Positions 4,589 through 51,113 of a stretch of 64,000 nt of DNA are shown here, one piece after another (the stretch's first letter is position 1; each line of letters opens with the position of its first letter). The notes beneath the pieces were generated by a model. The model had not been told where the DNA came from and ran no database searches. It saw nothing but the letters and a program-made list of their open reading frames with translations. The position numbers were made by a program, and so were the translations under genes. The DNA is from Bdellovibrio reynosensis. Its GTDB lineage: Bacteria; Bdellovibrionota; Bdellovibrionia; Bdellovibrionales; Bdellovibrionaceae. Location of the stretch: the NCBI RefSeq assembly GCF_022814725.1, contig NZ_CP093442.1, forward strand, positions 2,046,001 to 2,110,000, in the 5' to 3' direction.

Positions 4589-6277
4589 TTACGGTAACTC
4601 TTGCGCCCAGGCTTCAGGTAAGATGATTTTTGCATCCTCTTCCCAAAACTCGTAAGGACCTTTTTCATTTTCAAGTCTGCGTTTTTTCTCAAACGCTACA
4701 AGCTCATCCCTTTGCACTTCACCTAAGGTGTTTTTGGGAATTTCCATAAACTCCAAGCGGCGAACTCGTTTAAAAGGAGAAAGTCTCGTGCGCACAAAAT
4801 TCATAATATCTAAAGCCATTTCTTTTGTTGGTTCAGCACCTTTCACTAAGGCGACGACTGCCTTAGGCACTACTTCCCGTATAGGATCAGGACTTGGAAT
4901 AACCACAGCCTCACGCACAGAAGGAAATTCTTTTAGAACACTTTCAATTTCGTTCGGACTGATGCGGTAGTCAGAGGATTTAAACACTCCATCAAGGCGT
5001 TTTTCATAAGTGAAATTTCCGTCTTCATCACGGTAAGCAACATCACCAGTGCGTAAATATCCTGTGCCAGCATCAAGGCCGGTTGCCAGTCCCCACGGAT
5101 GATTTTCAATGTTAATAGCAATTTCACCTTCATCAGATGGGGCACCGGCTGAGTTTAAAAGTTCAACTTTAAATCCCGGCAAAGCCTTACCTAATGTGCC
5201 AAAACTGCTTGTTTCCCCGGGCGGAATACCAATCACCGTTGCAACTTCAGTCTGGCCGTATCCATCACGCACGAACACATCCCAAGCTTTATGAACTTTA
5301 GAGATGATCTCAGCACTCAGATTTTCCCCGGTGCTTAAGGCCTCGCGCAAATGTCCTTTATATGAAGACAGATCTTCATGAATTAATAATCTCCAAACTG
5401 TTGGCGGAGCACAGAAGGTCGTCACCTTATGCTCACTTAACGCATCCAAGACGAGTTTTGCATTAAAGCGTTCATGCTTTAAAATTAAAATCGTCGCTTC
5501 TGCATTCCATGGAGCAATAAAGTTGTTCCAATCATGCATCGCCCAGCCAGGAGAATTGATGCCCAGATGCACATCTCCGGGACGAAGACCCATCCAGAAC
5601 ATCGTCGACAAATGCCCAACTGGAAAACCAGCATAGGAATGTTCAACGATTCTTGGTTTCACCGAACTAGAGGAAGTAAAATATCTAAATAATGGATCCG
5701 TGGCCTTAGTTTTTACAGGCGCTTCAAAATAAGCACTTTCACGATAAAGCTCACCATACGTCGTCCAACCTGGAATTTCTCCATCAACGACAAGTGGCAT
5801 AATGTCTGATCCGGCTACAGAGAATTTTTCAGTGTGTCGTTTAGTGGTAGCAATGATTTTGACTCTTTCCCGATCCAGACGATCCTTGATTTCTGATTGA
5901 GAAAGTAAAGGATTCGCAGGCACAATCACCGCACCGACTTTCATCGCAGCCAACATGATTTCCCATAAGGCCACGTCATTCTCTATTAATAAGAAGATGG
6001 AATCACCTTTTTGAACTCCATGTCTTATGAAGAAATTCGCTACACGGTTGGAACGTTCAGAAAGCTCCTCGAAAGTATATTTTTCTTGAGTACCATCAGC
6101 ATGTACCAATAATAGAGCAGTATTTTTATTACCCTCTGCCATGGGGTCAAAAAAATCCAGAGCCCAATTAAAGTCATCAAGTTGAGGCCACTGGAAATGT
6201 TCATAGGCATAGGAATAATCTGCTCTGTGCAAGATTAGAAAATCCCTCGCCCGTTCAAATTCGTTGCGAAAGCTCAT
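4589..6277 (-). CDS. Acyl-CoA synthetase-like AMP-binding protein with altered core motifs
   Basis: A 562-residue ANL-superfamily protein most like acyl-CoA synthetases of the medium-chain/Acs group. Fold markers are clear: SPGWAMHDW (242-250), YGQTE (340-344), YLRTGD (407-412) and a RxD...PxEIE hinge (427-445). Two catalytic motifs deviate. The phosphate-binding loop, usually TSGTTGxPK, reads TSSSSVKPR (201-209). The C-terminal SGKxxR motif, which carries the adenylation lysine, reads LGEVQR (518-523), with Glu520 in the lysine position. The usual Gly before RI in the hinge is Asp. A strong GGAGGTC site precedes the ATG. It is probably monocistronic. It may have unusual kinetics, act only in the thioesterification half-reaction, or be a pseudoenzyme; the sequence does not decide. 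Confidence 0.85.
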   Translation of the reverse strand: MSFRNEFERARDFLILHRADYSYAYEHFQWPQLDDFNWALDFFDPMAEGNKNTALLLVHADGTQEKYTFEELSERSNRVANFFIRHGVQKGDSIFLLIENDVALWEIMLAAMKVGAVIVPANPLLSQSEIKDRLDRERVKIIATTKRHTEKFSVAGSDIMPLVVDGEIPGWTTYGELYRESAYFEAPVKTKATDPLFRYFTSSSSVKPRIVEHSYAGFPVGHLSTMFWMGLRPGDVHLGINSPGWAMHDWNNFIAPWNAEATILILKHERFNAKLVLDALSEHKVTTFCAPPTVWRLLIHEDLSSYKGHLREALSTGENLSAEIISKVHKAWDVFVRDGYGQTEVATVIGIPPGETSSFGTLGKALPGFKVELLNSAGAPSDEGEIAINIENHPWGLATGLDAGTGYLRTGDVAYRDEDGNFTYEKRLDGVFKSSDYRISPNEIESVLKEFPSVREAVVIPSPDPIREVVPKAVVALVKGAEPTKEMALDIMNFVRTRLSPFKRVRRLEFMEIPKNTLGEVQRDELVAFEKKRRLENEKGPYEFWEEDAKIILPEAWAQELP

Positions 6278-6386: not shown

Positions 6387-7541
6387 ATGGCAATATTTCG
6401 CACCGTCGCGGCCTCTTTTATTCTAGGAATCTTCATTTATGTTTCTCATCAGCTGACTGGTTACACCGATTTCAGCTGGGCGAAACGCAGTCTTTTAATT
6501 TCATTCCTAGCCCTTCTTTTCACTCTGGTAATTGGTACTTTTTTATTTTTCTGGAAAGAAAAGGATCTTGATCACAAGCCATGGCGCGACACGCTTTTAA
6601 ATTTCTCACTAACGGTGATGGGTTATATAAACTTTCTGGTGACCTTGGTCTTGCTTAGGGACATCTTTGCCTTGGCTGACAATCTCTTCGGATTGTTAAA
6701 CACGCAAGAGCTTTATAGCTCTACGGCGACAGGATACTTACTAGGTTTACCGGTGCTAATGCTTGCTTTGGGTAACACTGTCGTTAAAGTCGGCCCGAAA
6801 CTAAAAAAAGTGCCGCTTTATTTTAAAAATCTTCCTGCAGAGTTTGATAACTTGCGCATCGTGCACATCACTGATTTGCACGTAAGCCCGAGCTTGCCTA
6901 AAAAGTTCGTAAAGAAATTAGTAAATAAAACGCTAGAGCTAAAACCCGATGTGATCGTGTTTACCGGAGACATTCTAGATAGCTTTGCAGAAAAGCATCA
7001 GGAAGAATTAAAAACCCTGGGCGGCTTGAAGGCCCCCCACGGAGTTTATTACGTGCCGGGAAATCACGAATACTATTGGGGCGCGGAAAAAGGTTTAACA
7101 GCCTTCCGCGATATTGGCTTTAATGTCTTGATCAACGAAGTCACTGCAATTCGCAAAGACGGCAAAACCCTGCAAATTGCCGGGATTCCGGATCCCGCCG
7201 CGACTCACTTTGGCCAAATGGGACCGGATTTTATAAAAGTCCAATCGCAACTAAAACCAGATGATTTTAAAATACTGCTTTCCCACCAGCCTTCACTTGC
7301 TTCGAAGTCGGCGATGATTGGAGTTGATTTACAGCTTTCAGGCCACACCCATGGAGGCCAATTCTTCCCATGGAACTGGCTGATTGTGTTCTTTGAACGC
7401 TACGCCAAAGGACTTTATCGCATTAATGGGATGCAGCTCTATGTCAATCAGGGAACTGGTTATTGGGGCCCCCGATTACGCCTGGGCACATATTGTGAAT
7501 TGACCGAAATTGTTCTTCGCAAGGAATCAAAAACAGAGTAA
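6387..7541 (+). CDS. Membrane-anchored calcineurin-like metallophosphoesterase
   Basis: 384 residues. Four hydrophobic segments (about 5-20, 37-55, 72-92, 113-135) precede a phosphoesterase domain with all metal-binding motifs: TDLH (162-165), GDILD (194-198), GNHE (225-228), SHQP (299-302) and GHTHGGQ (319-325). This is the YkuE/YaeI-like architecture, whose members act on phospholipid-type or other phosphate esters at the membrane; the substrate cannot be read here. The recX frame begins five bases after its stop, so it likely shares the transcript with recX and alaS. Confidence 0.9.
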   Translation: MAIFRTVAASFILGIFIYVSHQLTGYTDFSWAKRSLLISFLALLFTLVIGTFLFFWKEKDLDHKPWRDTLLNFSLTVMGYINFLVTLVLLRDIFALADNLFGLLNTQELYSSTATGYLLGLPVLMLALGNTVVKVGPKLKKVPLYFKNLPAEFDNLRIVHITDLHVSPSLPKKFVKKLVNKTLELKPDVIVFTGDILDSFAEKHQEELKTLGGLKAPHGVYYVPGNHEYYWGAEKGLTAFRDIGFNVLINEVTAIRKDGKTLQIAGIPDPAATHFGQMGPDFIKVQSQLKPDDFKILLSHQPSLASKSAMIGVDLQLSGHTHGGQFFPWNWLIVFFERYAKGLYRINGMQLYVNQGTGYWGPRLRLGTYCELTEIVLRKESKTE

Positions 7542-7546
7542 TAATC

Positions 7547-8017
7547 TTGAGGATGTCGCGCACTAAAGATCCTCTAAAAACCCGTCAAGCAGCCAAAAGA
7601 AAAGTCATGGACTTGGTCGCTATGCGGGACCACTCAGAAAAGGAATTGCGCAAAAAACTGCGCGAGAAATTTTCTGACGAGGATTCCTTAGACGAAATCA
7701 TCGATGAAGCCATCGACTATGCCAAAGACAACAAATGGATAGGAGATCCCACCGATCTTGCCTATCGCATGGCTGATATGCTTCATCGCCGACGCAAGGG
7801 CATTCACTACATCAACAACTACTTACGCGAAAAAGGTTTGCCAGCTGTTGAAAGTGACCGTGACTTGGAGCTTGAAAAGGCTTTAGCGATTGTCAAAAAT
7901 AAGTATGAAGAAGATTTTGAATACTCCCGGGAAGAAAAAGCACGCGTAGCCCGCATGCTCGCATCCCGCGGATTTGATTCCGAGACCGTGAGGAAGGTTA
8001 TTTATGAAAAGCTCTGA
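7547..8017 (+). CDS. recX: Regulatory protein RecX
   Basis: A 156-residue RecX family protein, made of three-helix repeats, that binds inside the RecA filament groove and modulates its extension. The repeat starts RDHSEKELRKKLREKF and the later RRRKGIHYINNYLREKG and ARMLASRGFD segments are characteristic. The start is uncertain: TTG 7547, or ATG 7553, which has TTGAGG too close in front. Its last 14 bases overlap the start of alaS. recX-alaS is a common gene order, but here recA itself is 5 kb away on the other strand. Confidence 0.88.
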   Translation: MRMSRTKDPLKTRQAAKRKVMDLVAMRDHSEKELRKKLREKFSDEDSLDEIIDEAIDYAKDNKWIGDPTDLAYRMADMLHRRRKGIHYINNYLREKGLPAVESDRDLELEKALAIVKNKYEEDFEYSREEKARVARMLASRGFDSETVRKVIYEKL

Positions 8018-10730
8018 AGTTCGCAGCAAGTTTATTGAATATTTTAAAAGAAACGGTCACACCGCCGTGGCTTCATCTTCCTTGATTCCGGAAAACGATC
8101 CGACATTGCTTTTTGCAAACGCCGGTATGAACCAATTTAAAAATACTTTCCTGGGTCTTGAAAAACGGGACTACGTTCGCGCCGTGACTGCGCAAAAGTG
8201 CGTGCGTGCTGGTGGTAAACACAATGACTTAGAAAACGTCGGTTTCACCGCTCGTCACCACACGTTCTTTGAAATGCTTGGTAACTTTTCTTTCGGTGAC
8301 TATTTCAAAAAAGACGCCATCCGTTTTGCCTGGGAATTCTTAACAAAAGAATTAGCCATTCCAAAAGAAAAACTTTATGTCACAGTTCATATCTCTGACG
8401 ATGAAGCAGCTGAAATCTGGCACACTCAAGAAGGCATTCCAAAAGACCGCATCTTCCGCTTTGATGCTGATAACTTCTGGAAAATGGGCGACACAGGTCC
8501 TTGCGGTCCTTGTACAGAAATTTTCTACGATCACGGTCCAAAAGCAGGAACTATCGCTGATCCTTACAAAGGCATCGCTGCCGGTGAAGACCGCTTCGTA
8601 GAAATCTGGAATCTAGTATTCATGCAGTACTTCGAAAATCCTCCAGGCACTTTGACTCCGCTTCCAAAGCCGTCGGTTGATACCGGTGGGGGTTTAGAGC
8701 GTATGGTTGCAGCCATGCAGGGGAAATTTAATAACTACGACACTGACTTATTCATGCCGTTGATTGATCGCGCTTGTAAGATCGCGAACATCGAATACGT
8801 GAACGACAAAGAAGTTTTAGCTAAAAATCCTGAACAAGCTGAAAAAACATCTGCTCTTCGCGTTCTAGCGGACCACACTCGTTCAACATCTTTCTTAATC
8901 GCTGACGGAGCTTTGCCTTCAAACGAAGGCCGTGGCTACGTTCTTCGCCGTATCATGAGACGCGCGATCCGTTACGGTCGTAAGCTTTCAACAGATAAAT
9001 CCTTTATGCCAGCCATGGCTGAAGCATTAATCGAGCACATGGGCGATGTTTACCCAGAATTAAAACAGCGCCGCGAACAAATTCTTTCTACCATCCGTGA
9101 CGAAGAAGAACGCTTCATCGCAACCCTTGATAAGGGAACTGCGATCTTGATGGATGAAATCAGTCGCGCAAAATCAAAGGGCGTAAAAGAACTGACTGGT
9201 GAAGTTGTATTTAAAATGTACGACACCTACGGTTTCCCAGCTGACTTAACTCGCGTCATCGCCAACGAACACGGCATTGAAGTGAACGAAGAAGCCTTTG
9301 AAAAAGAAATGGAAAACAACCGCGCCCGTTCGAAAGCATCATGGAAAGGAAAATCCATGGACGCTGATGAACAGCACTTGATTAAATTCGCAAAAGACTA
9401 TGTGGCAGCAGGTAAGCAGGTTAAATTCACCGGCTACGCTGACATCGTTGGTTCTGGCCAAGTGATGAATCTATCAAACGGTCGCGAAGTCGTAGACAGC
9501 CTTAAAGAAGGCGATACTGGCGTCATGATTCTTGATCAAACCTCCTTCTATGGCGAAGGCGGCGGTCAAGTGGGTGACCATGGTTACATCACTGATGGAA
9601 CTGCAAAAGCGAAAGTGGTTAACGCTACAAAGATCGATGATATCATTTTACATCACGTGCAAGTAGAACAAGGTCAGTTTAAAGTCGGCAGCAAAGTAAA
9701 TACTTCTGTTGATTCGGTAGATCGCAGAAATACCATGAGCAACCATTCTGCAACTCACTTGTTACACTCTGCTTTAAGAAAGGTTTTAGGCGGCCACGTG
9801 ACTCAAGCGGGTTCATTGGTGGACGCTCAGAAAACTCGTTTCGATTTCACCCACAATAAACCACTAAGCTCTGATGAAATTAAACGCATCGAAGACATGG
9901 TCAATGAACAAATCGCTTTAGGCTTAGAAGTAAAAGCTGAAATCATGAACCACAAAGAGGCAGTTTCTAAAGGTGCCATGGCTTTGTTCGGTGAAAAGTA
10001 CGGCGATCAAGTGCGCGTTCTTACAATGGGTGATTTTTCTTGCGAACTTTGCGGAGGAACCCACGTGAAGAACACTTCACAAATCCGCATGTTTAAAATC
10101 GTTTCTGAAGCTGGCGTCAGTGCTGGTGTTCGTCGCCTTGAAGCGATCACTGGTGACGGCGCTGTTCGCTATGCGATGAATTCGATCAATCACTTTGACG
10201 AAGCTTTAGCAGCAGCAGGTTTACAAAAAAGCCCGCACTACCTTAAACATTTAGAAGCGACTGGCGAAACAGCGACACTGGCTTCTAAAGTTGAAGGTTT
10301 GAAAGATCAAATCAAACAACTAGAAAAAGAAATGAAGAAACTGCAAGGCGGCCAAGTAAATGCTGACGATCTTGCAGCGAAAGCCTTGACGTTTAAGACC
10401 AAAGCGGGTGCTTCGGCTAAACTAGTATTGGCAGATGTTGCTTTGGATGACCGCCAAGTATTGGCAGAAGTCACTGATCATCTTAAAAACAAAATCCAAA
10501 ACGGCATCGTGGTGGTTGTTGGACAAGGTGAAGCTTCCCATCCAATCATCGTGAGCGTTTCAAAAGAGCTTTCAAGCGAAGTAAAAGCCGGTGACCTATT
10601 AAAAGAAGTCGCAGGCCTGATGGGCGGAAAAGGCGGCGGCAGACCAGACTTTGCGCAAGGTGCGGCTCCAAACCGCGCAAGCCTTCCGCAAGCCTTCGAC
10701 AAAGTGAAGTCCATCGTAGGACTTCAATAA
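8004..10730 (+). CDS. alaS: Alanine--tRNA ligase
   Basis: A full-length AlaRS (908 residues) that charges tRNA-Ala and hydrolyses mischarged Ser/Gly-tRNA. The class II catalytic domain occupies the first ~240 residues (the N-terminal FxxxGH, ARHHTFFEMLGNFSFGDYF and GGGLERM blocks). The editing domain carries NHSATHLLHSAL near residue 580 and CGGTHV near 680, together the zinc/His site. A coiled coil and the Gly-rich C-Ala domain (GGKGGGRPDFAQG) end the protein. The ATG lies inside the end of recX, suggesting translational coupling. Confidence 0.98.
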   Translation: MKSSEVRSKFIEYFKRNGHTAVASSSLIPENDPTLLFANAGMNQFKNTFLGLEKRDYVRAVTAQKCVRAGGKHNDLENVGFTARHHTFFEMLGNFSFGDYFKKDAIRFAWEFLTKELAIPKEKLYVTVHISDDEAAEIWHTQEGIPKDRIFRFDADNFWKMGDTGPCGPCTEIFYDHGPKAGTIADPYKGIAAGEDRFVEIWNLVFMQYFENPPGTLTPLPKPSVDTGGGLERMVAAMQGKFNNYDTDLFMPLIDRACKIANIEYVNDKEVLAKNPEQAEKTSALRVLADHTRSTSFLIADGALPSNEGRGYVLRRIMRRAIRYGRKLSTDKSFMPAMAEALIEHMGDVYPELKQRREQILSTIRDEEERFIATLDKGTAILMDEISRAKSKGVKELTGEVVFKMYDTYGFPADLTRVIANEHGIEVNEEAFEKEMENNRARSKASWKGKSMDADEQHLIKFAKDYVAAGKQVKFTGYADIVGSGQVMNLSNGREVVDSLKEGDTGVMILDQTSFYGEGGGQVGDHGYITDGTAKAKVVNATKIDDIILHHVQVEQGQFKVGSKVNTSVDSVDRRNTMSNHSATHLLHSALRKVLGGHVTQAGSLVDAQKTRFDFTHNKPLSSDEIKRIEDMVNEQIALGLEVKAEIMNHKEAVSKGAMALFGEKYGDQVRVLTMGDFSCELCGGTHVKNTSQIRMFKIVSEAGVSAGVRRLEAITGDGAVRYAMNSINHFDEALAAAGLQKSPHYLKHLEATGETATLASKVEGLKDQIKQLEKEMKKLQGGQVNADDLAAKALTFKTKAGASAKLVLADVALDDRQVLAEVTDHLKNKIQNGIVVVVGQGEASHPIIVSVSKELSSEVKAGDLLKEVAGLMGGKGGGRPDFAQGAAPNRASLPQAFDKVKSIVGLQ

Positions 10731-10770: not shown

Positions 10771-12003
10771 TTAGAAGTAAAATTGAGTTCCAGCTAGCAT
10801 TGTAAACACGTGCTGTGATTTCGTGATCACGCTGAAATTCTGATTCACTCGTTCGATGGCTTTGCCTCGACCGCCAATATAATAACCACCGAAGGTATAC
10901 CCGATTTTATTGTCAGCAATAAATACGGCATTCGCACTGAATCCAAGCTGATCTAAACGTTCCCCTTGGAACTGTTGTAAGTTGGGATCGGGATCAGGAT
11001 AAGGTGAAAAGTTAGTGAATAGACCCGCCCGAACCTTGAACCAATCGACAATAGGCTTTTCAATCCCGATGGAAATATTCCCGACCACCTCGCGAGTGAT
11101 CGCAGAACCTTTGCCACTTAAATTCAAAGATTCATGCTTAAACCCTTCATATACATCCACGTTGGTAGAAAGTAACAGGTCAGTAAAAAACACCCGAGAA
11201 TAACCTAAAGAAAGTTTCGTCGGTATAAAGATCGAAGATTCTAAGTCATTTTCATTAATTTCTGTATTAGAATAAGGATTGGTCTGAGTTAGCGATTCAA
11301 AATAAGTAGCTTCAGATGATATTGGAATAGAGCGAATTCGCAGACTCACACCAAAATTTCCAAGCCCTGTTTGTTCAAAATACCCAAGTACTGGAACTAT
11401 CGCATTTTCAACTAACGTTTCTTCAGAGTTAAAAAGTATCGCTTCTGTCGCATTGGGATAAGTTCTGTCTTGAACAGATCTGATAAAATTCCTGGCTGTA
11501 TAATACAGAGTTAATCCCCAGCTCTGCGTGCGTGAAATGTTTTTCGCAACAACAGCGCCCACCCACAACGATTCATCGGTAAAAGCCAAGGTCGTTGTAT
11601 TCGTGTCAGTTGAATTTAAGTCACCTTTGAAGGTTTCATATTCCGGAACGACAATCGATAAACCAAAAGTTAAATCGTCTTTGCGAATTAAGTTTCCAGT
11701 TGAAGCGGGTAAAGATCTAAAAAATCCAGTGCTTACCTTTAACGGGGTTTTTGTGTAATCGGATTCTCCACCATATTGGGTATCATATTTTTTATAGATT
11801 CCCACCGCCGCTGAAAAAGCAGAACCCGGCGACTGCGCTAAAGTAGCTGGATTATAAAACGCTGATGAAGATGTATCTTCAACTAAAGCGGTCCCGGCCC
11901 CACCCATGCCCGCAGCACGATCACCAAGAATAATAGAATTGTAGTTAGCGATTTGCGAAAAGCCGACTGATGAACACAAAAGTAAAAACTTAATAAGCAC
12001 CAT
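10771..12003 (-). CDS. OmpP1/FadL-like outer membrane beta-barrel protein
   Basis: A 410-residue exported barrel. A signal peptide (to about FSQ, 17) is followed by DRAAGMGGAGTALVEDTSSSAFYNPATLA (in part 28-56), which matches the N-terminal plug region of the FadL/TodX hydrophobic-compound transporters (the 'GMGGAG...YNPA' signature). Alternating beta-strand sequence follows and the last residue is phenylalanine (GTQFYF), the usual barrel-assembly signal. It probably transports lipids or hydrophobic compounds across the outer membrane; the ligand is unknown. It appears to be transcribed alone. Confidence 0.8.
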   Translation of the reverse strand: MVLIKFLLLCSSVGFSQIANYNSIILGDRAAGMGGAGTALVEDTSSSAFYNPATLAQSPGSAFSAAVGIYKKYDTQYGGESDYTKTPLKVSTGFFRSLPASTGNLIRKDDLTFGLSIVVPEYETFKGDLNSTDTNTTTLAFTDESLWVGAVVAKNISRTQSWGLTLYYTARNFIRSVQDRTYPNATEAILFNSEETLVENAIVPVLGYFEQTGLGNFGVSLRIRSIPISSEATYFESLTQTNPYSNTEINENDLESSIFIPTKLSLGYSRVFFTDLLLSTNVDVYEGFKHESLNLSGKGSAITREVVGNISIGIEKPIVDWFKVRAGLFTNFSPYPDPDPNLQQFQGERLDQLGFSANAVFIADNKIGYTFGGYYIGGRGKAIERVNQNFSVITKSQHVFTMLAGTQFYF

Positions 12004-12749: not shown

Positions 12750-15023
12750 TTAAGTGTTTGCAGCCTCTGTCTCAGCAGGAGATACGCAGTATTTATTCAC
12801 CAATTCAAATACCGTCTGTTTACGAATCGGTTTACTGCAGTGATCATTGGCACCCGCGCTTAGGCTTTTTTCGATATCTTCTAAAAAGCTATTGGCAGAG
12901 ATAACCACCACGGGTGCAGCGGGACGCTCATAGATACGCTCGATATCGCGAAGCTTGCGGATCGTATCAAGGCCTGACATGCGGGGCATCTGTACGTCCA
13001 TAAATACTAGATCATATTGAAACTTATGACATTTCTCTAAGCATTCAAAACCGTCGTAAGCCGAATCAGCAACAACATAGTCAAGACGCTTTAAATAGGC
13101 CTTCATCAGTGCATGATTTTCTTCCATATCATCCACAATTAGAACCCGTCGTTGTGTCACTGACTTTTTCACTTGCAAGGTGTGTGATTCAACGGGAGCA
13201 ATCGGGCGCTGCACTTCCCAGGGATGAGCCACCCGACTTGACAACAAAATCGAAAAGTAAAATTTCGAACCCAGCTGCTGAACGCTTTCACAGTAAAGCT
13301 CCGCACCCATAGCTCGAACAATCTTTTGTGAAATATTTAAACCCAGACCGGTGCCACCATATCTTCTGGTAACTGACGAGTCTTCCTGACCAAATTCATC
13401 AAAGATTTTTTTAAGATTTTCTTTCGCAATCCCGACACCAGTATCTTGAATCTCAAACAAGAAATATTCCGAGCCATTCTTGCCAAGGTAAGGTTGAATG
13501 GTTAGTTCAATTTTACCTTTGTCAGTGAATTTCGCGGCATTACCTAACAGATTCATAAGCACTTGCTTTAATCTTAAAGAATCACCAATCACCCACCGAT
13601 CCAACTCTGGCCCATGAATTGTAAAGGTTAAGCCTTTTCGTAAAGCGACAGGTGAAACCAAAGCGTCGACCTCTCGAACCACATCACTTAACAAAAATTC
13701 CCTTTTTTCCAGGTGCAGGTGACCTGATTCAAACTTCGACACATCAAGAACATTGTTAAGCATTCCCAGCAGGGTATCGCCGGCACTTCTTAAGGTTGTT
13801 AATAGTTCTGCCTGTTCCTCTGTCAGATCGGTTTCTTCCATAAGTTCAGCAGATCCCAACATCGCGTTGAGCGGGGTACGAATCTCGTGGCTCATGGTTG
13901 AAAGAAACAATGTTTTTGCTTTGGTCGCAGTTTCAGCGCGGTCTCTTTGCAGTTTTAGTTCTTCAAATGAAGCTTGTTCTTTACTTAAAACATAGCGACC
14001 TGTAAGCCAGATAGTCAGACTTAAAAGTCCATAAGCCGCAAGCGCTACAAAACCTAAAACGAAAAGGCGCCAGTAAAGGCCCTCATAGGCTTCGCTCTTT
14101 TCTTGATACATCACTAAATTCCAAGGACGGTTTTTGATCGCCGTTGCGTAAGTTAAATAAGTTTTTCCGTCAACGCCGGCAAATTCTTGAAGCTTTTTAT
14201 TTTGAACAGAGAAAACCAAGTTCGAAGTTTTCGGAAGCCTTTGGTAAGCTTGATAATTTGCAATTGCGGAATATGAAAACCCCAAAAGCGGCAGATTCTT
14301 GGTCGCCAACGGCAAAATGGGACGACCTTTATTATCTACGATCAGAATTCCACCCGTTGCTCCCCACTTAAAATCACTCAATCGTCGAGGAATATCCGTA
14401 ACAAGATTATCAATACCAACAACAGCTTCTAACTTTCCTTTGTTAAAAAGCCCAACCGTCGTGCTGTACATAAGCTTTTCTGTATAATCTTTATCGAAGT
14501 AAAAATCGGTAAAGTTCACGCCAGGCTTATTCACATTGCCCCACCACCATTGCATTTCGGGCACTTCAGGACTTTTTTCAAATCCTGTATCAAGAAATTC
14601 TTTGGTGATAATTCCTGTATTATCGCTATTGCGCTTCACCGTGAAAACATAAGCTGGATGACCGAAATATTTCTGCGCCTTATCGCCAACGAAGGCGAAA
14701 AAAGCGTTATAGTGATTGGGATGATCAGCAAAACTTTGCGCTGCGACTTCCATGAACTTTTGTTGGCGCTGATTCTTTTTCGGAATGACATCAAAGAACT
14801 CGACGATATTTTTTAGGCGATTGACGTCATCTTCTAAAAATTTAACTTCCGCATTTAGCAAATCAGCTTCACGGATAAGAATCGGCTCTATACGTTCGCT
14901 GATGTTCTGTCTTTCAGAAACGAAAAGATGAACCCCATACACGACCATGACCAATAATAAGGTGAAAGTGGTGACAGCATGATTCAAAAAAAAGATATGT
15001 ATCAGCTTAAGCTTTTTAATCAT
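12750..15023 (-). CDS. Hybrid sensor histidine kinase with periplasmic Cache-like domain and receiver
   Basis: 757 residues. TM1 (about 15-34), a ~280-residue periplasmic part with Cache-type features (YSTTVGLFNKGKLEAVVGIDN, about 186-206), TM2 (319-341), then HisKA with the phospho-acceptor His379 in STMSHEIRTPLN, HATPase_c with N-box (NLLGNAAKF, 491-499), DTGVGI (527-532) and GGTGLGL (556-562), and a C-terminal receiver with acidic pair D631-D632, phospho-acceptor Asp676 (FMDVQMP) and Lys731. All catalytic residues are present. No response regulator gene adjoins it, so its output partner (a separate phosphotransfer protein or regulator) lies elsewhere. The periplasmic domain suggests sensing of a small molecule outside the inner membrane. 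Confidence 0.92.
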   Translation of the reverse strand: MIKKLKLIHIFFLNHAVTTFTLLLVMVVYGVHLFVSERQNISERIEPILIREADLLNAEVKFLEDDVNRLKNIVEFFDVIPKKNQRQQKFMEVAAQSFADHPNHYNAFFAFVGDKAQKYFGHPAYVFTVKRNSDNTGIITKEFLDTGFEKSPEVPEMQWWWGNVNKPGVNFTDFYFDKDYTEKLMYSTTVGLFNKGKLEAVVGIDNLVTDIPRRLSDFKWGATGGILIVDNKGRPILPLATKNLPLLGFSYSAIANYQAYQRLPKTSNLVFSVQNKKLQEFAGVDGKTYLTYATAIKNRPWNLVMYQEKSEAYEGLYWRLFVLGFVALAAYGLLSLTIWLTGRYVLSKEQASFEELKLQRDRAETATKAKTLFLSTMSHEIRTPLNAMLGSAELMEETDLTEEQAELLTTLRSAGDTLLGMLNNVLDVSKFESGHLHLEKREFLLSDVVREVDALVSPVALRKGLTFTIHGPELDRWVIGDSLRLKQVLMNLLGNAAKFTDKGKIELTIQPYLGKNGSEYFLFEIQDTGVGIAKENLKKIFDEFGQEDSSVTRRYGGTGLGLNISQKIVRAMGAELYCESVQQLGSKFYFSILLSSRVAHPWEVQRPIAPVESHTLQVKKSVTQRRVLIVDDMEENHALMKAYLKRLDYVVADSAYDGFECLEKCHKFQYDLVFMDVQMPRMSGLDTIRKLRDIERIYERPAAPVVVISANSFLEDIEKSLSAGANDHCSKPIRKQTVFELVNKYCVSPAETEAANT

Positions 15024-15192
15024 GATCTATCCAAAAACGTGTCCTACAGCGATCATCCCTTAAGCATAGGCAATTCCACGGCTATATGTCTAATTCTTTC
15101 AGACTCAGTGCAACTATTGCATCGCATTTGATTTGCAACGCCAATTGCCCTGAAATAGCCTTCCTGTGCGAAATACACCTGGGAGGGTAAAA

Positions 15193-15588
15193 ATGAAAAA
15201 ACTAATCGCAGCAGCTTTGGTTCTTATCGGTTCTTCTGCAATGGCAGACACAACTCTTTTCAACTGTGTTGTTCCATCGAACACAAACTCTGTAACTCTA
15301 ACTGTAACCAAAGCTGATGATACATCTGTAGACTACATCATCGCTTCTTTAAGCGAAAAAAGCGGTGGCTCTGATTTCTTCGCACAAATGGATCCAGGGA
15401 CTGTAGACGCTCAATTGGCTAACGGTTTCTTGCAAATGATGGCTTTGACAGATCATTCTGCTCAAGATCCAAATGACGGTGTTATCACTAACACTGGTTT
15501 CCTAACTTTGAACGCTGAAAAAGATGGTTCTTTCCAAGGCATCTTGTTCGCTAAAGGAAACATCTATCCTTTGTACTGCACTAAGTAG
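15193..15588 (+). CDS. Small secreted protein of unknown function
   Basis: 131 residues with a textbook signal peptide (MKKLIAAALVLIGSSAMA, cleaved before Asp19). The mature protein is acidic and rich in Thr/Ser, with two cysteines (C25 and the near C-terminal C129) that could pair. ATG 15193 is chosen over an upstream GTG because GGGAGG lies seven bases before it and the signal peptide then begins correctly. Codon use is biased towards the preferred set, suggesting high expression. The signal sequence closely resembles those of the small secreted proteins at 19.5-20.7 kb. Confidence 0.8.
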   Translation: MKKLIAAALVLIGSSAMADTTLFNCVVPSNTNSVTLTVTKADDTSVDYIIASLSEKSGGSDFFAQMDPGTVDAQLANGFLQMMALTDHSAQDPNDGVITNTGFLTLNAEKDGSFQGILFAKGNIYPLYCTK

Positions 15589-45589: not shown

Positions 45590-45610
45590 TTGAATCGAAC
45601 GACACATATA

Positions 45611-45650
45611 AAAAAAGGGGCAACACTTTAAGTGCTGCCCCTTTTCTTTT
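45611..45650. terminator. Bidirectional rho-independent terminator
   Basis: AAAAGGGGCA...TGCCCCTTTT with inner CACTT/AGTG pairing, with A and T runs on both sides. It separates the porin gene and the end of the radical SAM operon. Confidence 0.9.
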
Positions 45651-45662
45651 TTTGAAGTCTTG

Positions 45663-46304
45663 TTAGCGAAGGACCTCGCCCTTAATAACCTTGCCGCGGA
45701 TAACAGTCGTTGGTGAAACGTAAACCCTTCCTGGGGCAGAACGGAATTCGATATCTCCATCCACTGTCACATCAGCACCCAATCGAATGATAGGTCCAAG
45801 GGGATGTTCAGGACTTGGATCAACTGCGATCTTCTTGACAGAAGACTTCCCCGTAATCTCTAGTTCGTTCCCTAAAAAGTTTAAAGACGAATCCAAAGTC
45901 ACGTTGCGAAGGCTAGAACCTTGATCTCCACGAATCGTCACCGCACCCTGCAAATGACTTTGCTCTAAGATAGCGACACCGCGGAAATAACTTTCACCTC
46001 TCACCGAAGAATCCTTCAAAGTGGCGCGACCATCGACATTTAATGATTCAGCAACTTGAGACTTATCAAGTTCAACACGACCATTAACGTCTAAGGATTT
46101 TGCAAACTGCACATCCTTTGCAATTAAGCGCCCACGAATTTTAGCTGAACCTTTTACGCTGCCGTTTTGAATTTCGGCAACGCCATTATGATTCAGGTCG
46201 TTTAGATTCGTGACATCCTTAGCCAGTTTTCCCGAAGTCCCAGCGCAAGCAGTGCTAACTCCAACCAACAAAGATAGAAGGGTGCTAGCAATTACTGGTT
46301 TCAT
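45663..46304 (-). CDS. Beta-helical lipoprotein, last gene of the radical SAM operon
   Basis: 213 residues. Signal MKPVIASTLLSLLVGVSTAC with a lipobox-like STAC (Cys20) is followed by about 190 residues made of short repeats with small hydrophobic spacing (VNGRVELDKSQVAESLNVDGRATLKDSSVRG, partly), typical of a right-handed beta-helix or bactofilin-like stack. Possibly anchored to a membrane and presenting or binding the peptide encoded next to it. ATG 46304 follows the precursor stop by one base, with GGAG 9 bases upstream. Not a recognised family; low similarity to bactofilins is only by pattern. Confidence 0.6.
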   Translation of the reverse strand: MKPVIASTLLSLLVGVSTACAGTSGKLAKDVTNLNDLNHNGVAEIQNGSVKGSAKIRGRLIAKDVQFAKSLDVNGRVELDKSQVAESLNVDGRATLKDSSVRGESYFRGVAILEQSHLQGAVTIRGDQGSSLRNVTLDSSLNFLGNELEITGKSSVKKIAVDPSPEHPLGPIIRLGADVTVDGDIEFRSAPGRVYVSPTTVIRGKVIKGEVLR

Positions 46305-46305
46305 A

Positions 46306-46536
46306 CTAAGTTGCTCCGCAACCGCTGTTGCTGACACAACCCGAGTCGAACCATTCAACTTCTTGGGCGCCTGCAGTGCTAGTTACTTCAAATGAAACTT
46401 GTTTATCTTCTTCGGTTGCTATGACGGGTTTAGCCGCTGCTACCGAAACGTTTGAGGCAAGCAACACATTCATCATGGCCGCAGATAAAGCCAATTTTTT
46501 CATTGTATCCTTACGCGAGTTTTCGTTGTTGTTCAT
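46306..46536 (-). CDS. Putative RiPP precursor peptide (76 residues)
   Basis: Small gene between the helical partner and the beta-helix gene. Residues 12-35 look like a signal peptide (MKKLALSAAMMNVLLASNVSVAAA). The remainder is acidic and ends in a distinctive Gly/Cys tail, EWFDSGCVSNSGCGAT (61-76), with Cys67 and Cys73. Two starts are possible: ATG 46536 with an excellent AGGAGG site, or ATG 46503 with AAGGAT. Why a precursor: the upstream genes encode a radical SAM/SPASM protein with complete cluster cysteines, and such maturases act on short peptides with Cys/Gly/Ser-rich tails. The operon has no other substrate candidate. The signal-peptide-like leader is unusual for a RiPP, so an unmodified secreted peptide remains possible. 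Confidence 0.55.
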   Translation of the reverse strand: MNNNENSRKDTMKKLALSAAMMNVLLASNVSVAAAKPVIATEEDKQVSFEVTSTAGAQEVEWFDSGCVSNSGCGAT

Positions 46537-46586
46537 GGTTCCTCCTGTGTTTTTATCCAGAATTAATTTCCTGAATAAATTTGTTT

Positions 46587-47750
46587 TTAAAAAGTAAGCA
46601 TCGAACTTTCGGTTTCTTGAAACTGAGGTTGCAGCTTTTGCAGCAACGCTGGAATAAGCTCCAAGAAATGTTCCATCATTGATTCTAATTGAAATGTGTT
46701 AATAGAATTTGGCGCCTTCGCATCTCGGAAGTTTTGATAGCCTGTGCGATTTCTTAATTGTAGTAATAAAGTCTTAGAATCAAGATCACCAAAATTTGCC
46801 GCATTAAAAATTTGCAGAGTCGTAAGCATTCCCACTTCATTTTTTTCAGTCTCTGCAAACTTAAAATTCTTATTGGTTAGCTCATAAACCAAATCTAAGC
46901 TGGTTGAATCTAATACGTATTGATTTAATAAAAGTGCAAATTCAAAATTCTGAGCAGTAATTTCAGCAGTGTGCACATAGTATGAAAGCAATTTTGTCAC
47001 AATACTTTCAGCCTCTTCATCAAACCCATCGGCCTTTAGAATCGTCGCCATTCTTAGCATTGCTGCATGCAGAACAAGACCTTGTGATTTTTGCGACATC
47101 AGCAAACTTTTTTCTAGGGCACTTTCATAACAGCCCTTTTTTTGATCTTGGATGATGTAAAATTCTGAAAGTAATGCGTCCTCTTTTTTCGCAACCCAGT
47201 TCCAAACTTCGCTGTTAACTTTATAGGTGGATTCATTCAGCAAAGTTTTTAAAAGATCGACCCGCAAAGACCGCAAAAAGGTTTTATACGCTTCTTGATC
47301 AGTCAGTTTTGATAAATCATAAACTGAATCAAAAAGCGGCAGCTCTTTATAACCGTTAATCACTGCCCCGATGGTAGCTTCAATTTCAGAAGCCACCAGC
47401 TGTTTTTCATGCCGGCCCTGACGAACCAAATTCACATAAGATTGCAAAGCCAAGGCAGACGCTCTGCCATCAGTACAGTGTCTGGCAGAAAAGGAACGCA
47501 AAATACCAAGACAAAGCGCGCGCGATAGATCCTTTTTTCCGTGGTGAAAAAGCAAAAGCGAAAGGTTGTTTCCTAATGAAAAGAAGAACTCTAGGTCTGC
47601 ATCTGAAAGGTAATAATTTTTCTGTCTAAAGATAAACTCGAATTGATCCAAGCCACATTGCAGCTTCTGAATCCATGTCGTGTAGGAAACAAGATTAATA
47701 TAGTCTTTATTTGGAACAAAGAACGTATTCGTCAATTGGGCGGTCTTCAT
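46587..47750 (-). CDS. Helical partner protein of the radical SAM operon
   Basis: 387 residues, almost all helical, with leucine-rich repeats of helix pairs resembling a TPR/HEAT-like solenoid. No signal peptide and no membrane segment. Not recognised. ATG 47750 overlaps the maturase stop by four bases (ATGA), so it is translationally coupled to it, and it precedes the putative precursor by 50 bases. A role as scaffold or precursor-binding partner is inferred from position. A longer open frame upstream inside the maturase gene is rejected. Confidence 0.65.
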   Translation of the reverse strand: MKTAQLTNTFFVPNKDYINLVSYTTWIQKLQCGLDQFEFIFRQKNYYLSDADLEFFFSLGNNLSLLLFHHGKKDLSRALCLGILRSFSARHCTDGRASALALQSYVNLVRQGRHEKQLVASEIEATIGAVINGYKELPLFDSVYDLSKLTDQEAYKTFLRSLRVDLLKTLLNESTYKVNSEVWNWVAKKEDALLSEFYIIQDQKKGCYESALEKSLLMSQKSQGLVLHAAMLRMATILKADGFDEEAESIVTKLLSYYVHTAEITAQNFEFALLLNQYVLDSTSLDLVYELTNKNFKFAETEKNEVGMLTTLQIFNAANFGDLDSKTLLLQLRNRTGYQNFRDAKAPNSINTFQLESMMEHFLELIPALLQKLQPQFQETESSMLTF

Positions 47751-49102
47751 ACGGCCGCCTCTTTTTTCGGGAAGTATTTTTTGGACTGCAAATACTGCAG
47801 CAACATTCTTTCCTGAATGTTCATTTTTAGAGAAGGACAAGCGGCCCTGCCTTCGGCCCATTCTTTTGGACAACGTCCACCACAAAGTGGAAGCAGGAAG
47901 CATTCTTTGCATCCATAATCACCAGCAATGACTTCGTCATAAAAATGACTGAATTTATTTAGATTCGGAATAATTCCAGCGCCTTCATCCTTAATATTCC
48001 CAAGGCTGTGAATGTTTTTTCCAGCGACTTCATAACTTGGTACAAGGGAAACTTCCGTACAACCAAAGACTTCACCAGAAGGGTCCACCAGGTACCCACT
48101 TTTTGAAGACGCAAGACAAAGCTGTTTTTTTCTTTTTGGAATTAGATTTGACGGAAATCCCAACTGAATCATTTCCATCAAAATCCCCAGTTCCCAGTCA
48201 GCGAATTCTTTTAAAGAAGAAGATCTTGTGTGGGCGTCATTACCCCATGAATGAACCGGGATCATATAGAAGTGCCAGATTTTTTTATGCAAGCCATCAC
48301 TGTGCAATTTTTTAATCAAAGGCAGAACGCCTTCTCTATTTTCATTATCGACATTGCAGCGAATGATAAATTTAGCTGTTGGCTTTTCTTCAGACAGCAA
48401 ATCTTTCAAATTCTTATAGATGACGTCGAAGCTAGGGCCTTTGTATTTAGTAAAACGTCGTTGATCATGAAACTCCGCCGTTCCATCTAACGTGATTTCA
48501 TATTGATTACAGTTAGCATGCTCAATGAGCAGATCCATATTCTTACGATTTAGATTAACCCCATTTGTCGTGGCTTTCGAACGAAAGCGAATGCCTTTTT
48601 CTAAACACAGGGATTTAAGTTCTTTGCCAATTTCAACAATGCGGGAAACGGCTGTTAAAGGTTCAGCCCCAAACCAGGAAACAACCAACTCTTTGGGCTG
48701 ATGAGTTTGGATTTTGTTCTGAATAAAAGATAAAATAGCGTCCTTATCAAGTTTGCCTTCTTTAGAGTGAGCTTGCCCACAATACACACAACCTAACTGG
48801 CACCAAGATGAAGGCTGCAAAACCACGTACAACGTTTCTTCTTTATTATCTTCAACTTGATTTTCACTGATAATTTTTAACAACTCCTGATCAGGAGTTT
48901 CAGAAGTAAGAAATTGGTAACGTTCCAGATTGCTAAGAACCTCTGGCGCCAATGATTCAAAGCTTCCGGCCTGAAGTTCTTTATAGGATTCTAGATCCAA
49001 ACTGATTTGGATCCCTGTTTTGGTATTCAATAAAAGTGCGACATATGTATGAAGATTTTGGTCGAAAATAACTTGCGAAAGTGAATATCTAGTTAAACGC
49101 AT
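47747..49102 (-). CDS. Radical SAM/SPASM peptide-modifying enzyme
   Basis: 451 residues. Residues ~1-85 look like the short leader-binding N-terminus usual in peptide maturases. The radical SAM [4Fe-4S] motif is CQLGCVYC (C101, C105, C108), followed by the GAEPL segment (145-149). The SPASM domain is complete: C329, then G343-x4-C348, and C398-x2-C401-x5-C407-x3-C411 with a final C422, ligands for two auxiliary clusters. This matches enzymes that make thioether or C-C crosslinks in ribosomal peptides, or act on a protein side chain. First gene of the operon. The ATG follows GGGGGAAAG. Confidence 0.9.
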   Translation of the reverse strand: MRLTRYSLSQVIFDQNLHTYVALLLNTKTGIQISLDLESYKELQAGSFESLAPEVLSNLERYQFLTSETPDQELLKIISENQVEDNKEETLYVVLQPSSWCQLGCVYCGQAHSKEGKLDKDAILSFIQNKIQTHQPKELVVSWFGAEPLTAVSRIVEIGKELKSLCLEKGIRFRSKATTNGVNLNRKNMDLLIEHANCNQYEITLDGTAEFHDQRRFTKYKGPSFDVIYKNLKDLLSEEKPTAKFIIRCNVDNENREGVLPLIKKLHSDGLHKKIWHFYMIPVHSWGNDAHTRSSSLKEFADWELGILMEMIQLGFPSNLIPKRKKQLCLASSKSGYLVDPSGEVFGCTEVSLVPSYEVAGKNIHSLGNIKDEGAGIIPNLNKFSHFYDEVIAGDYGCKECFLLPLCGGRCPKEWAEGRAACPSLKMNIQERMLLQYLQSKKYFPKKEAAV

Positions 49103-49709
49103 CTTTCCCCCGAAACATCTTGTTTCAGCTAACCTTTAGTTTTTCAAAACCCCGAAAATAAGGTTTGCAACTCCAGGACCGCGGGAAAAAATCTTCAAAT
49201 AGAATTTATAATGGTTTGAGATTTCAAAACGATTTTTTTTTGGAAAATGAGTCTTCGATCGGGGACTCTAGATGTCCGAATTGTCCGAAGATCCATGGGA
49301 AATATTCTTAAGTGTTATTAATAGCTTATGAAACCCAAAGGTGGACAACCCGCCCACCGGATTTGAGAAAGAACTGCCCGGCTGATAGCTGAGTTTTAGA
49401 AAAAATATCACTGGGACCGAACATGTTGAATTTGAAAATGGCTTAACTTAAACAAGTTTATTAATACGACGTATTTCGGTTTCGACGATAAACACTGCCT
49501 TAGCAATCAAAGTTTATTTTCAAAACAATTGCCCTAGAGCCCCTTCGTCAGAAGTTTCAGTTCATTATCAAGCAGCCGGAGCAAAACTAGTTTGGCAAGG
49601 TAGCGGGACTTCTTACACGTTCAACAACAAATCCTTAAAAACGCTTGAATGGCCTTTGAAAGGCCGGCCCGGTGAAGCGAGAGTATTAGATTTTATATGC
49701 AACTAAATC
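49103..49709. other. 607-base region between the radical SAM operon and the secreted repeat protein gene
   Basis: Mostly AT-rich with no gene that I can support. It holds an inverted repeat GAAAC-N5-GTTTC at 49113-49127 in front of the maturase gene, a hairpin GAGTC/GACTC at 49249-49268, a mini open frame of 19 codons at 49272-49331 and the remnant frame at 49452-49706. The promoter of the maturase operon must lie here. Confidence 0.6.
49452..49706 (+). pseudogene. Possible gene remnant (85-codon open frame without start)
   Basis: An uninterrupted frame to a TAA encodes protein-like sequence in its second half (YQAAGAKLVWQGSG, TFNNKSLKTLEWPL, ARVLDFICN) but has no ATG, GTG or TTG with a ribosome-binding site. 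It starts right after a stop codon. The first part contains FQNNC, similar to the F-Q-N-C lipobox of two other lipoproteins in this window, so it may derive from a lipoprotein gene. A frameshift relative to an alternative frame (YFGFDDKHCLSN) near 49530 is possible. Confidence 0.35.
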
Positions 49710-50930
49710 CTAAGGTTTTTTAGGAGCTAACTTATAAACAGCGTCGCCCCATATTTTTTTGCCGGCGCTATCAATTAGCACACAAGCAAAAACTAATTCG
49801 TTACTTTCATTTAGATCCAGATTTCCTGCAAAGCCCGGAAAATTTCGATCAGAAATAATGTTTGCATCTCCTAAATCCGAAGGGATGCTGTCGCCTTCGC
49901 CAATCAATCGCTTTACGCCTTGCTTTGATGCGATATAAATTCCGCGCAAACCTTTTTCGTTCTTTGCACGAAAGGCTATCACTCCATACGAATTTATTTT
50001 TGGCGCAAACAATTCTAGCTCAGAAATTCCACCTTTTCCTTCGCTGACCACCGTTGTTAACTGGCCACTTTCATAGACAATCAAAGATTTTTTCCCTTGG
50101 TGATCGTGACCGACAAATACAACCAATCCATTTTTTGCTAAGCCTAAAGAGTTACCGAATCCCGAAAATGGTGAAGCCGCATTTGCTTTATTATCTTCAG
50201 CAATGATTTGAACATCATGCCCGTTTGCAACCGGGGTCAGAAGATAAATACGATCAGGTCGGTCATCCCCCCACTCGCCATTACCACCGTGACGAACTTT
50301 GAAGGCCCACTGTTTTGCTTCATTCATCGCCGGACTAAAAAGGTAAGAGGCTGCCACACCGAAAGACGTTTTTCCTTCCATCGCGAAATTTGATAATGAC
50401 GATGTCATTTCATAAAAACCGCGATCACCTTCGCTAGTCAGGCCTCTGAAAACAGCTGTTCCATCGGTGAAGGTTTGTGCAAAACCAAAATAAGATATCT
50501 TATTATCCGGACCTGACACCTTCATTTCGCTTTTTGCTGTGCGGGAATCGAAAACAAAAAGTCCGTCACTAAAACCATCATTAAAGGGACTGTAGGTCAC
50601 CTGTCCCAAATCATTGATCCCAGGATCGGTCACAAACTTATCACTCGCGGCCACATAAATAATTTTGCCTGCAGAATCGTGTTGGGTTTTAAGCCATAAC
50701 GCCTGATCGGTAGTCCCGTTGACAGCCATAACTTTAAAGGCCACCTCCCCTTTGTTATTAATAACTGGCGAGGTGTTGTTTAGGAAACTTGAAGGCGGAA
50801 GCTGATAAGTACTTTTATAGTGCGCACGTGCCAGTAATTCTGGTTGCGAATAATCGGGCAAAGTTCCTGCCTGACTGAATTGAGAAAGAAATAAACCTGC
50901 TGCGAATAATTTTAAGCTTAAAAGTGCCAT
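49710..50930 (-). CDS. Secreted protein of repeat/propeller-like type
   Basis: 406 residues with a signal peptide (LSQFSQAG, about 22). The mature part consists of 6-7 recurring units with patterns such as NNKGEVAFKV, NDLGQVTYSP, NEAKQWAFKV, AKNGLVVFVG, NSYGVIAFRA and NESNELVFAC, each 'N-x-x-G-x-(V/A)-F'. This suggests a beta-propeller similar to choice-of-anchor proteins seen in Bacteria. Function unknown. ATG 50930 chosen; GTG 50954 is possible. Confidence 0.68.
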   Translation of the reverse strand: MALLSLKLFAAGLFLSQFSQAGTLPDYSQPELLARAHYKSTYQLPPSSFLNNTSPVINNKGEVAFKVMAVNGTTDQALWLKTQHDSAGKIIYVAASDKFVTDPGINDLGQVTYSPFNDGFSDGLFVFDSRTAKSEMKVSGPDNKISYFGFAQTFTDGTAVFRGLTSEGDRGFYEMTSSLSNFAMEGKTSFGVAASYLFSPAMNEAKQWAFKVRHGGNGEWGDDRPDRIYLLTPVANGHDVQIIAEDNKANAASPFSGFGNSLGLAKNGLVVFVGHDHQGKKSLIVYESGQLTTVVSEGKGGISELELFAPKINSYGVIAFRAKNEKGLRGIYIASKQGVKRLIGEGDSIPSDLGDANIISDRNFPGFAGNLDLNESNELVFACVLIDSAGKKIWGDAVYKLAPKKP

Positions 50931-51113
50931 ATGTTTATTGTGCCCAGTCCGCACTTTCTTTGAAAAGCCTTAATATGCTCGGATCCGAGACCTTCAGGAC
51001 GCAGCGTTAAGACCGCTATTCCATTAAGACATTAAGCCAAGCTTAAGCCTATTACAGCTACCGAAAAGGCCCCAAATTTGGTACCCTCGCCTGAGTTATA
51101 AGAGGGACTTCCC

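Follow-up and report, generated by a model that had tools for sequence, protein, structure and literature searches.

The NxxC peptides of streptococci are ranthipeptides, a kind of radical S-adenosylmethionine (SAM) RiPP (ribosomally synthesized and post-translationally modified peptide), and are linked to Rgg; a radical SAM/SPASM enzyme is encoded beside a short peptide in which an Asn stands three residues before a Cys. NxxcB forms a proven C-beta thioether between the thiol of Cys23 and Asn20, which precedes it by three residues, and the C-beta links of freyrasin go to Asp (PMC8326336, PMC13361665). A second comparison is with the bufferins and oxazolins, short Cys-containing precursors with their own Sec signal and a dedicated partner protein; these systems have an MNIO enzyme and a DUF2063 partner, and their peptides contain heterocycles. 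According to a 2025 survey of MNIO RiPPs, Sec signals in RiPP precursors are highly unusual, and Sec use in the natural host is established only for bufferins (PMC12452194). The subject of the present analysis is a four-gene operon in a 64,000-nucleotide stretch of the Bdellovibrio reynosensis genome (contig NZ_CP093442.1, positions 2,046,001 to 2,110,000; the window) that encodes, in order on the minus strand, a radical SAM/SPASM enzyme, a 387-residue protein, a 76-residue peptide with a signal-peptide-like N terminus and a 213-residue beta-helix protein. Sequence comparisons support well the view that these genes form a RiPP system whose precursor is exported; that it is a horizontally acquired system of the [N/D]xxC type we hold with a probability of roughly 0.6.

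The operon and its maturase

An earlier reading made from the letters of the window (the sequence-only reading) had described a tight co-directional layout, and each junction is as claimed: an ATGA overlap between the first two genes, a 50-base gap before the precursor gene that holds AGGAGG just ahead of the ATG, and a single base between the precursor TAG and the ATG of the beta-helix gene. Judging by this layout, the four genes look co-transcribed, with a probable terminator common to the operon and the convergent porin gene. Positions in the window are as follows.

47747..49102, minus strand: radical SAM/SPASM peptide maturase, 451 amino acids (from sequence, PF04055 and clade)
46587..47750, minus strand: 387-residue helical orphan protein, partner of the radical SAM enzyme; its start at 47750 lies in the ATGA overlap with the maturase gene
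46541..46546, minus strand: AGGAGG, ribosome-binding site of the precursor gene (from sequence)
46306..46536, minus strand: putative RiPP precursor gene, 76 codons (from sequence and counterparts beside relatives)
46503, minus strand: alternative internal precursor start, M12 (from sequence)
46432..46503, minus strand: putative Sec-type signal segment MKKLALSAAMMNVLLASNVSVAAA (read directly from the sequence; 15-residue hydropathy 1.51)
46402..46413, minus strand: EEDK leader motif of the precursor (EED[K/Q] in common with L016, L017 and the first L042 peptide, L042a)
46336..46347, minus strand: D64-S-G-C67, first predicted crosslink site (sequence and motif statistics)
46318..46329, minus strand: N70-S-G-C73, second predicted crosslink site (sequence and motif statistics)
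45663..46304, minus strand: exported beta-helix protein, probable lipoprotein, 213 codons (AlphaFold2 and lipobox-like region)
45610..45648, no strand assigned: near-perfect inverted repeat, 19-nucleotide arms, 89%; probable terminator at the operon end

The motifs previously ascribed to the maturase are all in place: CxxxCxxC is C101, C105 and C108, the seven SPASM cysteines are C329, C348, C398, C401, C407, C411 and C422, and Pfam Radical_SAM (PF04055) matches at 6e-12. The third gene likewise has the 76 codons claimed for it, and its product ends in EWFDSGCVSNSGCGAT. No NCBIfam equivalog fits the enzyme, because all scores lie far below the cut-offs. The closest profiles, which also belong to systems with Cys-rich substrates, are TIGR04463 (184 bits versus a cut-off of 525) and CefB (NF038107; 163 versus 600); Clo7bot (109 versus 600), the PapB-type ranthipeptide maturase NF047865 (88 versus 340) and TIGR03974 (SCIFF; 54 versus 425) follow. 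These scores rule out a TIGR04463 maturase; a CefB-type system is ruled out by its score together with the substrate pattern, since CefA in L012 is a 679-residue protein with a Cys at every fifth residue, in which any Asp stands mostly at -2 of the Cys, not at -3. Nine relatives of the enzyme likewise fall below the equivalog cut-offs (TIGR04463 scores 158-222 bits). The only match among PDB sequences is 5wgg (1.7e-5, residues 57-256), which we take to be the SCIFF maturase CteB. Thioether chemistry is common to that system and the one predicted here; SCIFF maturases act on six-Cys clostridial substrates and, to our knowledge, no signal peptide occurs in these.

A contig scan with the maturase as a single sequence gave no matches; a scan with a three-sequence alignment found relatives, and yielded 80 loci. 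A maximum-likelihood tree of 88 rows places the enzyme in a 30-row clade (support 100/100, branch length 1.14) that spans Bdellovibrionota, Alphaproteobacteria, Bacteroidota, Actinomycetota and others. Within it, the Gram-negative members form a 17-row group (95/88), which contains a six-row group (96/91) of the window enzyme, two from Caedibacter, two from Roseibium and one from a deltaproteobacterial metagenome-assembled genome (L042). The nearest enzymes are 38-41% identical to it over their full length, and that of L042 is 45% identical over its better half. Outside the clade lie the TIGR04463-annotated L012 enzyme and the streptococcal enzymes. Phage records hold only weak matches to the maturase, and a pattern search of IMG/VR returned no relative by the patterns used.

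The operon sits in an insertion. In none of the 23 same-genus genomes searched does the corresponding site contain the segment 45590..51113, from the porin gene to valS. All 23 have valS and the gene that lies upstream of the porin gene in the window, with the operon unmatched; where the porin gene matches beside valS, the two are about 0.2-0.73 kb apart, versus 5.5 kb in the window. Searches of 369 genomes of the phylum with the maturase, the 387-residue protein and the beta-helix protein found no counterpart of this kind, the best maturase matches elsewhere in the phylum (26-31%) belonging to other lineages; the search for the precursor covered its own genome and plasmids. The operon has a G+C content of mostly 0.38-0.41, a little lower than the 0.42-0.46 of its flanks. 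Neither mobile-element nor flanking repeats were found at the insertion ends. The host is likely a predatory bacterium.

Short [N/D]xxC peptides and their leaders

The co-occurrence on which the sequence-only reading had staked its proposal, a short motif peptide beside the maturase in relatives, is observed: 21 of the 30 clade loci have a nearby short open reading frame (ORF) that contains [N/D]xxC once or more (counted by inspection: the window, L010, L011, L016-L020, L022, L024-L032, L037, L038 and L042). The tail pattern GC-x(4)-GCG that had been proposed as its hallmark is not conserved as such; the conserved element is [N/D]-x-x-C. Thus DSGC and NSGC in the window correspond to NGIC and NGSC in L016, NTGC and NGVC in L017, NGVC and DAGC in L028, and NNGC twice in L032; L025 has three copies, each combining NSGC or NGVC with NTGC or NTSC, and L042 has NGGC, DSSC and NSNC in one peptide, with NSAC and NSGC at the end of a second.

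The spacing is specific. Offsets were counted in the last 45 residues of every short ORF in the 17 Gram-negative loci that is free of overlap with a larger one. An Asn or Asp stands at -3 of a Cys 104 times (38 of these in L018), versus 32-57 times at the eleven other offsets; ORFs with at least two motifs at -3 number 22, a few chance ORFs among them, whereas shuffling gives 6 on average and at most 13. A two-motif ORF lies within 3 kb in 14 of the 30 clade loci at -3 (the ORFs counted in L021 and L011 may be chance ORFs) and in 3 to 8 at seven other offsets. These recurrences support the view, first put forward in the sequence-only reading, that the 76-mer is the substrate of a RiPP-type maturase.

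The extreme case is Sediminibacterium roseum (L018), in which one maturase of the clade is surrounded by seven or more short ORFs, each with as many as seven NxxC motifs (motif ORFs at 4879-6090 and 11385-11959 on the minus strand and 14951-15263 on the plus strand), and 38 of 40 tail cysteines in the six ORFs counted are in the motif. C39-peptidase-type ABC transporter genes, identified by their N-terminal sequence, stand beside the L018 and L021 enzymes, in L018 together with an HlyD-like gene. The Bacteroidota members of the clade (L018, L021, L024, L027 and L028) have the motif in all but L021 and differ from the window in having no secretory leader. In Actinokineospora (L032, 6644-8338), a signal-peptide-bearing NNGC/NNGC precursor and its radical SAM enzyme form a minimal pair between CorC-like and Era-like genes, with no accessory genes. 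On a Rhizobium etli plasmid (L010, 7294-9536), a HEAVH-motif protein adjoins the clade enzyme and is followed by a JmjC-domain protein; further tailoring is therefore possible there.

The N terminus of the window precursor (residues 12-35) has the form KK-hydrophobic-AAA, with predicted signal cleavage after A35 (AAA before KPV). The sequence-only reading had remarked on this leader as unusual; judged by sequence, it is no quirk of this genome. Hydrophobic N termini, each with a plausible small-residue cleavage site, are found at six loci: the window, L016 and L017 (Caedibacter), L042, L032 and L038 (Amycolatopsis), with hydropathies of 1.5-2.2 in the Caedibacter precursors, both L042 peptides, L032 and both L038 peptides. 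Precursors from Rhizobium, Bacteroidota and Streptomyces are without a hydrophobic leader (at most 0.82), and two from Roseibium are intermediate (1.19 and 1.33). Behind the hydrophobic segment, EED[K/Q] recurs in the window, L016, L017 and L042a (single-peptide shuffle probabilities of 0.001-0.003, for a motif chosen post hoc and with L016 and L017 closely related). The predicted combination of a radical SAM crosslink with a Sec-exported precursor is rare among such peptides and recurs in unrelated bacteria.

Predicted chemistry and alternative readings

From these comparisons we infer a chemistry, a route of export and biological roles, as follows. The 76-mer would be made in the cytoplasm, where the radical SAM enzyme, using SAM and the iron-sulfur clusters of its SPASM domain, would abstract a C-beta hydrogen from D64 and from N70 and join each residue to the thiol three residues downstream (C67 and C73). 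The C-terminal tail would gain two small rings closed by thioethers, at a cost of 2 Da each and 4 Da in total. Sec would then export the modified peptide by way of its own signal peptide, with cleavage near A35, releasing a peptide of ~41 residues with a double-ringed end into the periplasm or onto the surface. [N/D]xxC is the target motif of NxxcB, and C-beta thioethers D64-C67 and N70-C73 are therefore the best prediction; DSGC and NSGC fit both acceptor types, Asp as well as Asn. The enzyme probably staples two cysteines to a nearby Asp and Asn before export. A maturase beside a short precursor, and Asn or Asp at -3 of Cys, are present in the window as in the NxxC systems; the window differs in having Asp besides Asn at that place, and in its predicted secretory leader.

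Several observations weigh against this interpretation. A search of 147 streptococcal genomes yielded an enzyme (L108) beside a peptide ending in VNASCPRTNGNC (NASC/NGNC) and without a secretory leader, presumably of the NxxC subfamily and NxxcB-like; it is only 22% identical to the window maturase and groups outside the clade, with the enzymes of two loci whose adjacent peptides end in QMP (L104 and L105). The regiochemistry at carbon is not readable from ancestry, because QmpB, by the title of a paper cited in PMC13361665, makes alpha-thioethers. Nine clade loci, including a five-member actinobacterial subclade, are without a convincing motif ORF, and -3 motifs also occur in 19 of 63 outgroup loci. 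Signal peptides were called by eye and by hydropathy (15-residue window), the AXA site by eye. The enzyme gene of L042, the closest relative (6983-8397), is split over two frames by a frameshift that reflects either an assembly error or decay of the gene; the contig stops just past it, with the downstream genes off the contig.

The motif is common to the window and the NxxC systems and the enzyme lineage is different, so that attachment at the alpha or the beta carbon stays a prediction, and the crosslink type one based on the motif. The same system might make alpha-carbon thioethers (as a sactipeptide), or use other acceptors, with the Asn or Asp serving for recognition. Similarity among enzymes is blind to this distinction, and QMP-type streptococcal enzymes similar to that of L104 make alpha-thioethers; the strict -3 spacing, Sediminibacterium tails included, matches the NxxcA crosslink exactly, and an acceptor at a fixed distance is its best explanation, which renders this variant unlikely. 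Less probable still is that the exported Cys peptide, whether modified or unmodified, chelates a metal in the envelope or serves as a redox peptide in the manner of bufferins, with the beta-helix protein as scaffold. Copper-binding exported short Cys-containing precursors do exist, among the bufferins (PMC12452194), but the 76-mer has two cysteines only, both in crosslink-type motifs, no metal-related neighbours were recognised, and neither an MNIO enzyme nor a DUF2063 partner was found among the four genes with NCBIfam and Pfam. This also rules out a bufferin in the strict sense; the metal-binding proposal concerns function and is compatible with the thioether chemistry favoured here.

That the maturase acts instead on the beta-helix or the helical protein, the short gene specifying an independent exported peptide, is hard to credit. 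SPASM enzymes can act on proteins, as the anaerobic sulfatase maturases do (TIGR03942 matches the enzyme at 66 bits), and the layout would place all four genes in one transcript. The beta-helix protein, however, has a single cysteine, in its lipobox region, and it is the short [N/D]xxC peptide, not either of these proteins, that recurs beside relatives.

With the C-beta thioether preferred, we rate the system as an NxxC-type thioether RiPP, of a known kind, with an unusual mode of export as what is new. Of the claim that the system is undescribed, one part thus stands, in that no NCBIfam maturase equivalog fits, and the other does not, the predicted chemistry being of a known kind. Somewhat short of an even bet is the broader proposal of an unnamed, widely scattered class of radical SAM RiPPs made from precursors that themselves bear a secretion signal. 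Its members would be [N/D]xxC-crosslinked peptides that leave the cell by Sec in Bdellovibrio-type bacteria, Caedibacter, a deltaproteobacterium and Actinobacteria, some of which have beta-structured envelope accessories. Such a class, if real, would be the radical SAM counterpart of the bufferins. The literature that could be searched, most subscription journals not being covered, yielded no paper on TIGR04463, on systems with a Cys at every fifth residue, on a link between DUF4097 and radical SAM peptides, or on radical SAM/SPASM RiPPs of Bdellovibrio. For practical purposes, [N/D]xxC beside a maturase of this unnamed clade is a sequence rule for finding more such peptides. The system is also small enough to be tested, precursor and radical SAM enzyme being the minimum, as in Actinokineospora and Amycolatopsis; it addresses the questions of how modification can precede export in a precursor that bears a Sec signal and which SPASM features decide the thioether carbon.

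Partner proteins and neighbouring genes

The 387-residue protein was previously called a solenoid that assists the maturase. AlphaFold2 makes it all-helical at very low confidence (pLDDT 44), which agrees with the helical part of that description and leaves the solenoid label unsupported; the model is too poor for a structure search. The protein matched no family in NCBIfam, Pfam, PHROGs, PADLOC or PDB sequences, and no homologue beyond its own genome was found in the 369 genomes of the phylum, eight relatives' genomes, plasmids or the relatives' loci. The fourth gene fares better as to fold: the AlphaFold2 model, from a single sequence, is the claimed beta-helix (pLDDT 86.4, pTM 0.80). Foldseek gave no match below E 0.001, and VIA-align gave Z scores of up to 16.7, with rmsd often above 11, to many unrelated beta-helices; this spread tells only the fold, and no function. 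Pfam, NCBIfam, PHROGs and PADLOC returned only weak beta-helix profiles below their cut-offs, among them Bactofilin (PF04519; 0.0034, 18.0 bits versus a gathering threshold of 27.9) and YdcK (2.3e-5), and no homologue was found in the 369 genomes or the relatives' loci. C20, the sole cysteine, lies in a lipobox region (VSTA-C20) that fits the relaxed pattern only; the protein is a probable exported lipoprotein, with cleavage by signal peptidase I as a possible alternative.

Neither protein having been found elsewhere, the roles assigned to them in the sequence-only reading, assistance for the one and anchoring or display of the product for the other, are guesses. The helical protein may, by binding the precursor, hold it back from export until modification is done; a masking-type idea has been put forward for the PME-type 1 proteins of bufferin systems (PMC12452194), and by analogy one may speculate that the protein masks the signal peptide until modification is complete. 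The beta-helix protein, at a guess, may hold or receive the product. Its only analogue is in the Caedibacter clusters, where a signal-peptide-bearing DUF4097 "toastrack" protein (PF13349, 3.7e-7) is encoded between precursor and radical SAM enzyme. On a Bradyrhizobium plasmid (L096, 4699-6852), a 60-residue peptide ending in DNNGGCQCN, a radical SAM enzyme of another lineage and a DUF4097 protein stand in a row that is also present on several further Bradyrhizobium plasmids. Beta-structured partners may be a theme of such systems; two or three cases make this no more than a lead.

In another genome of the phylum (L005, 1205-2706), a 53-residue peptide ending in GCGNKCGGQCGNKCGCQGDNQHI is adjoined by genes for a different SPASM radical SAM enzyme and a membrane transporter. 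Within the window, the 5.5-kb insertion holds, besides the operon, a DUF7453 gene (49710-50954, minus strand), which has partial DNA matches elsewhere in four same-genus genomes. Between it and the maturase gene, a start-less open frame on the plus strand (49500-49706, ending in VHYQAAGAKLVWQGSGTSYTFNNKSLKTLEWPLKGRPGEARVLDFICN before the stop codon) is possibly a gene remnant.

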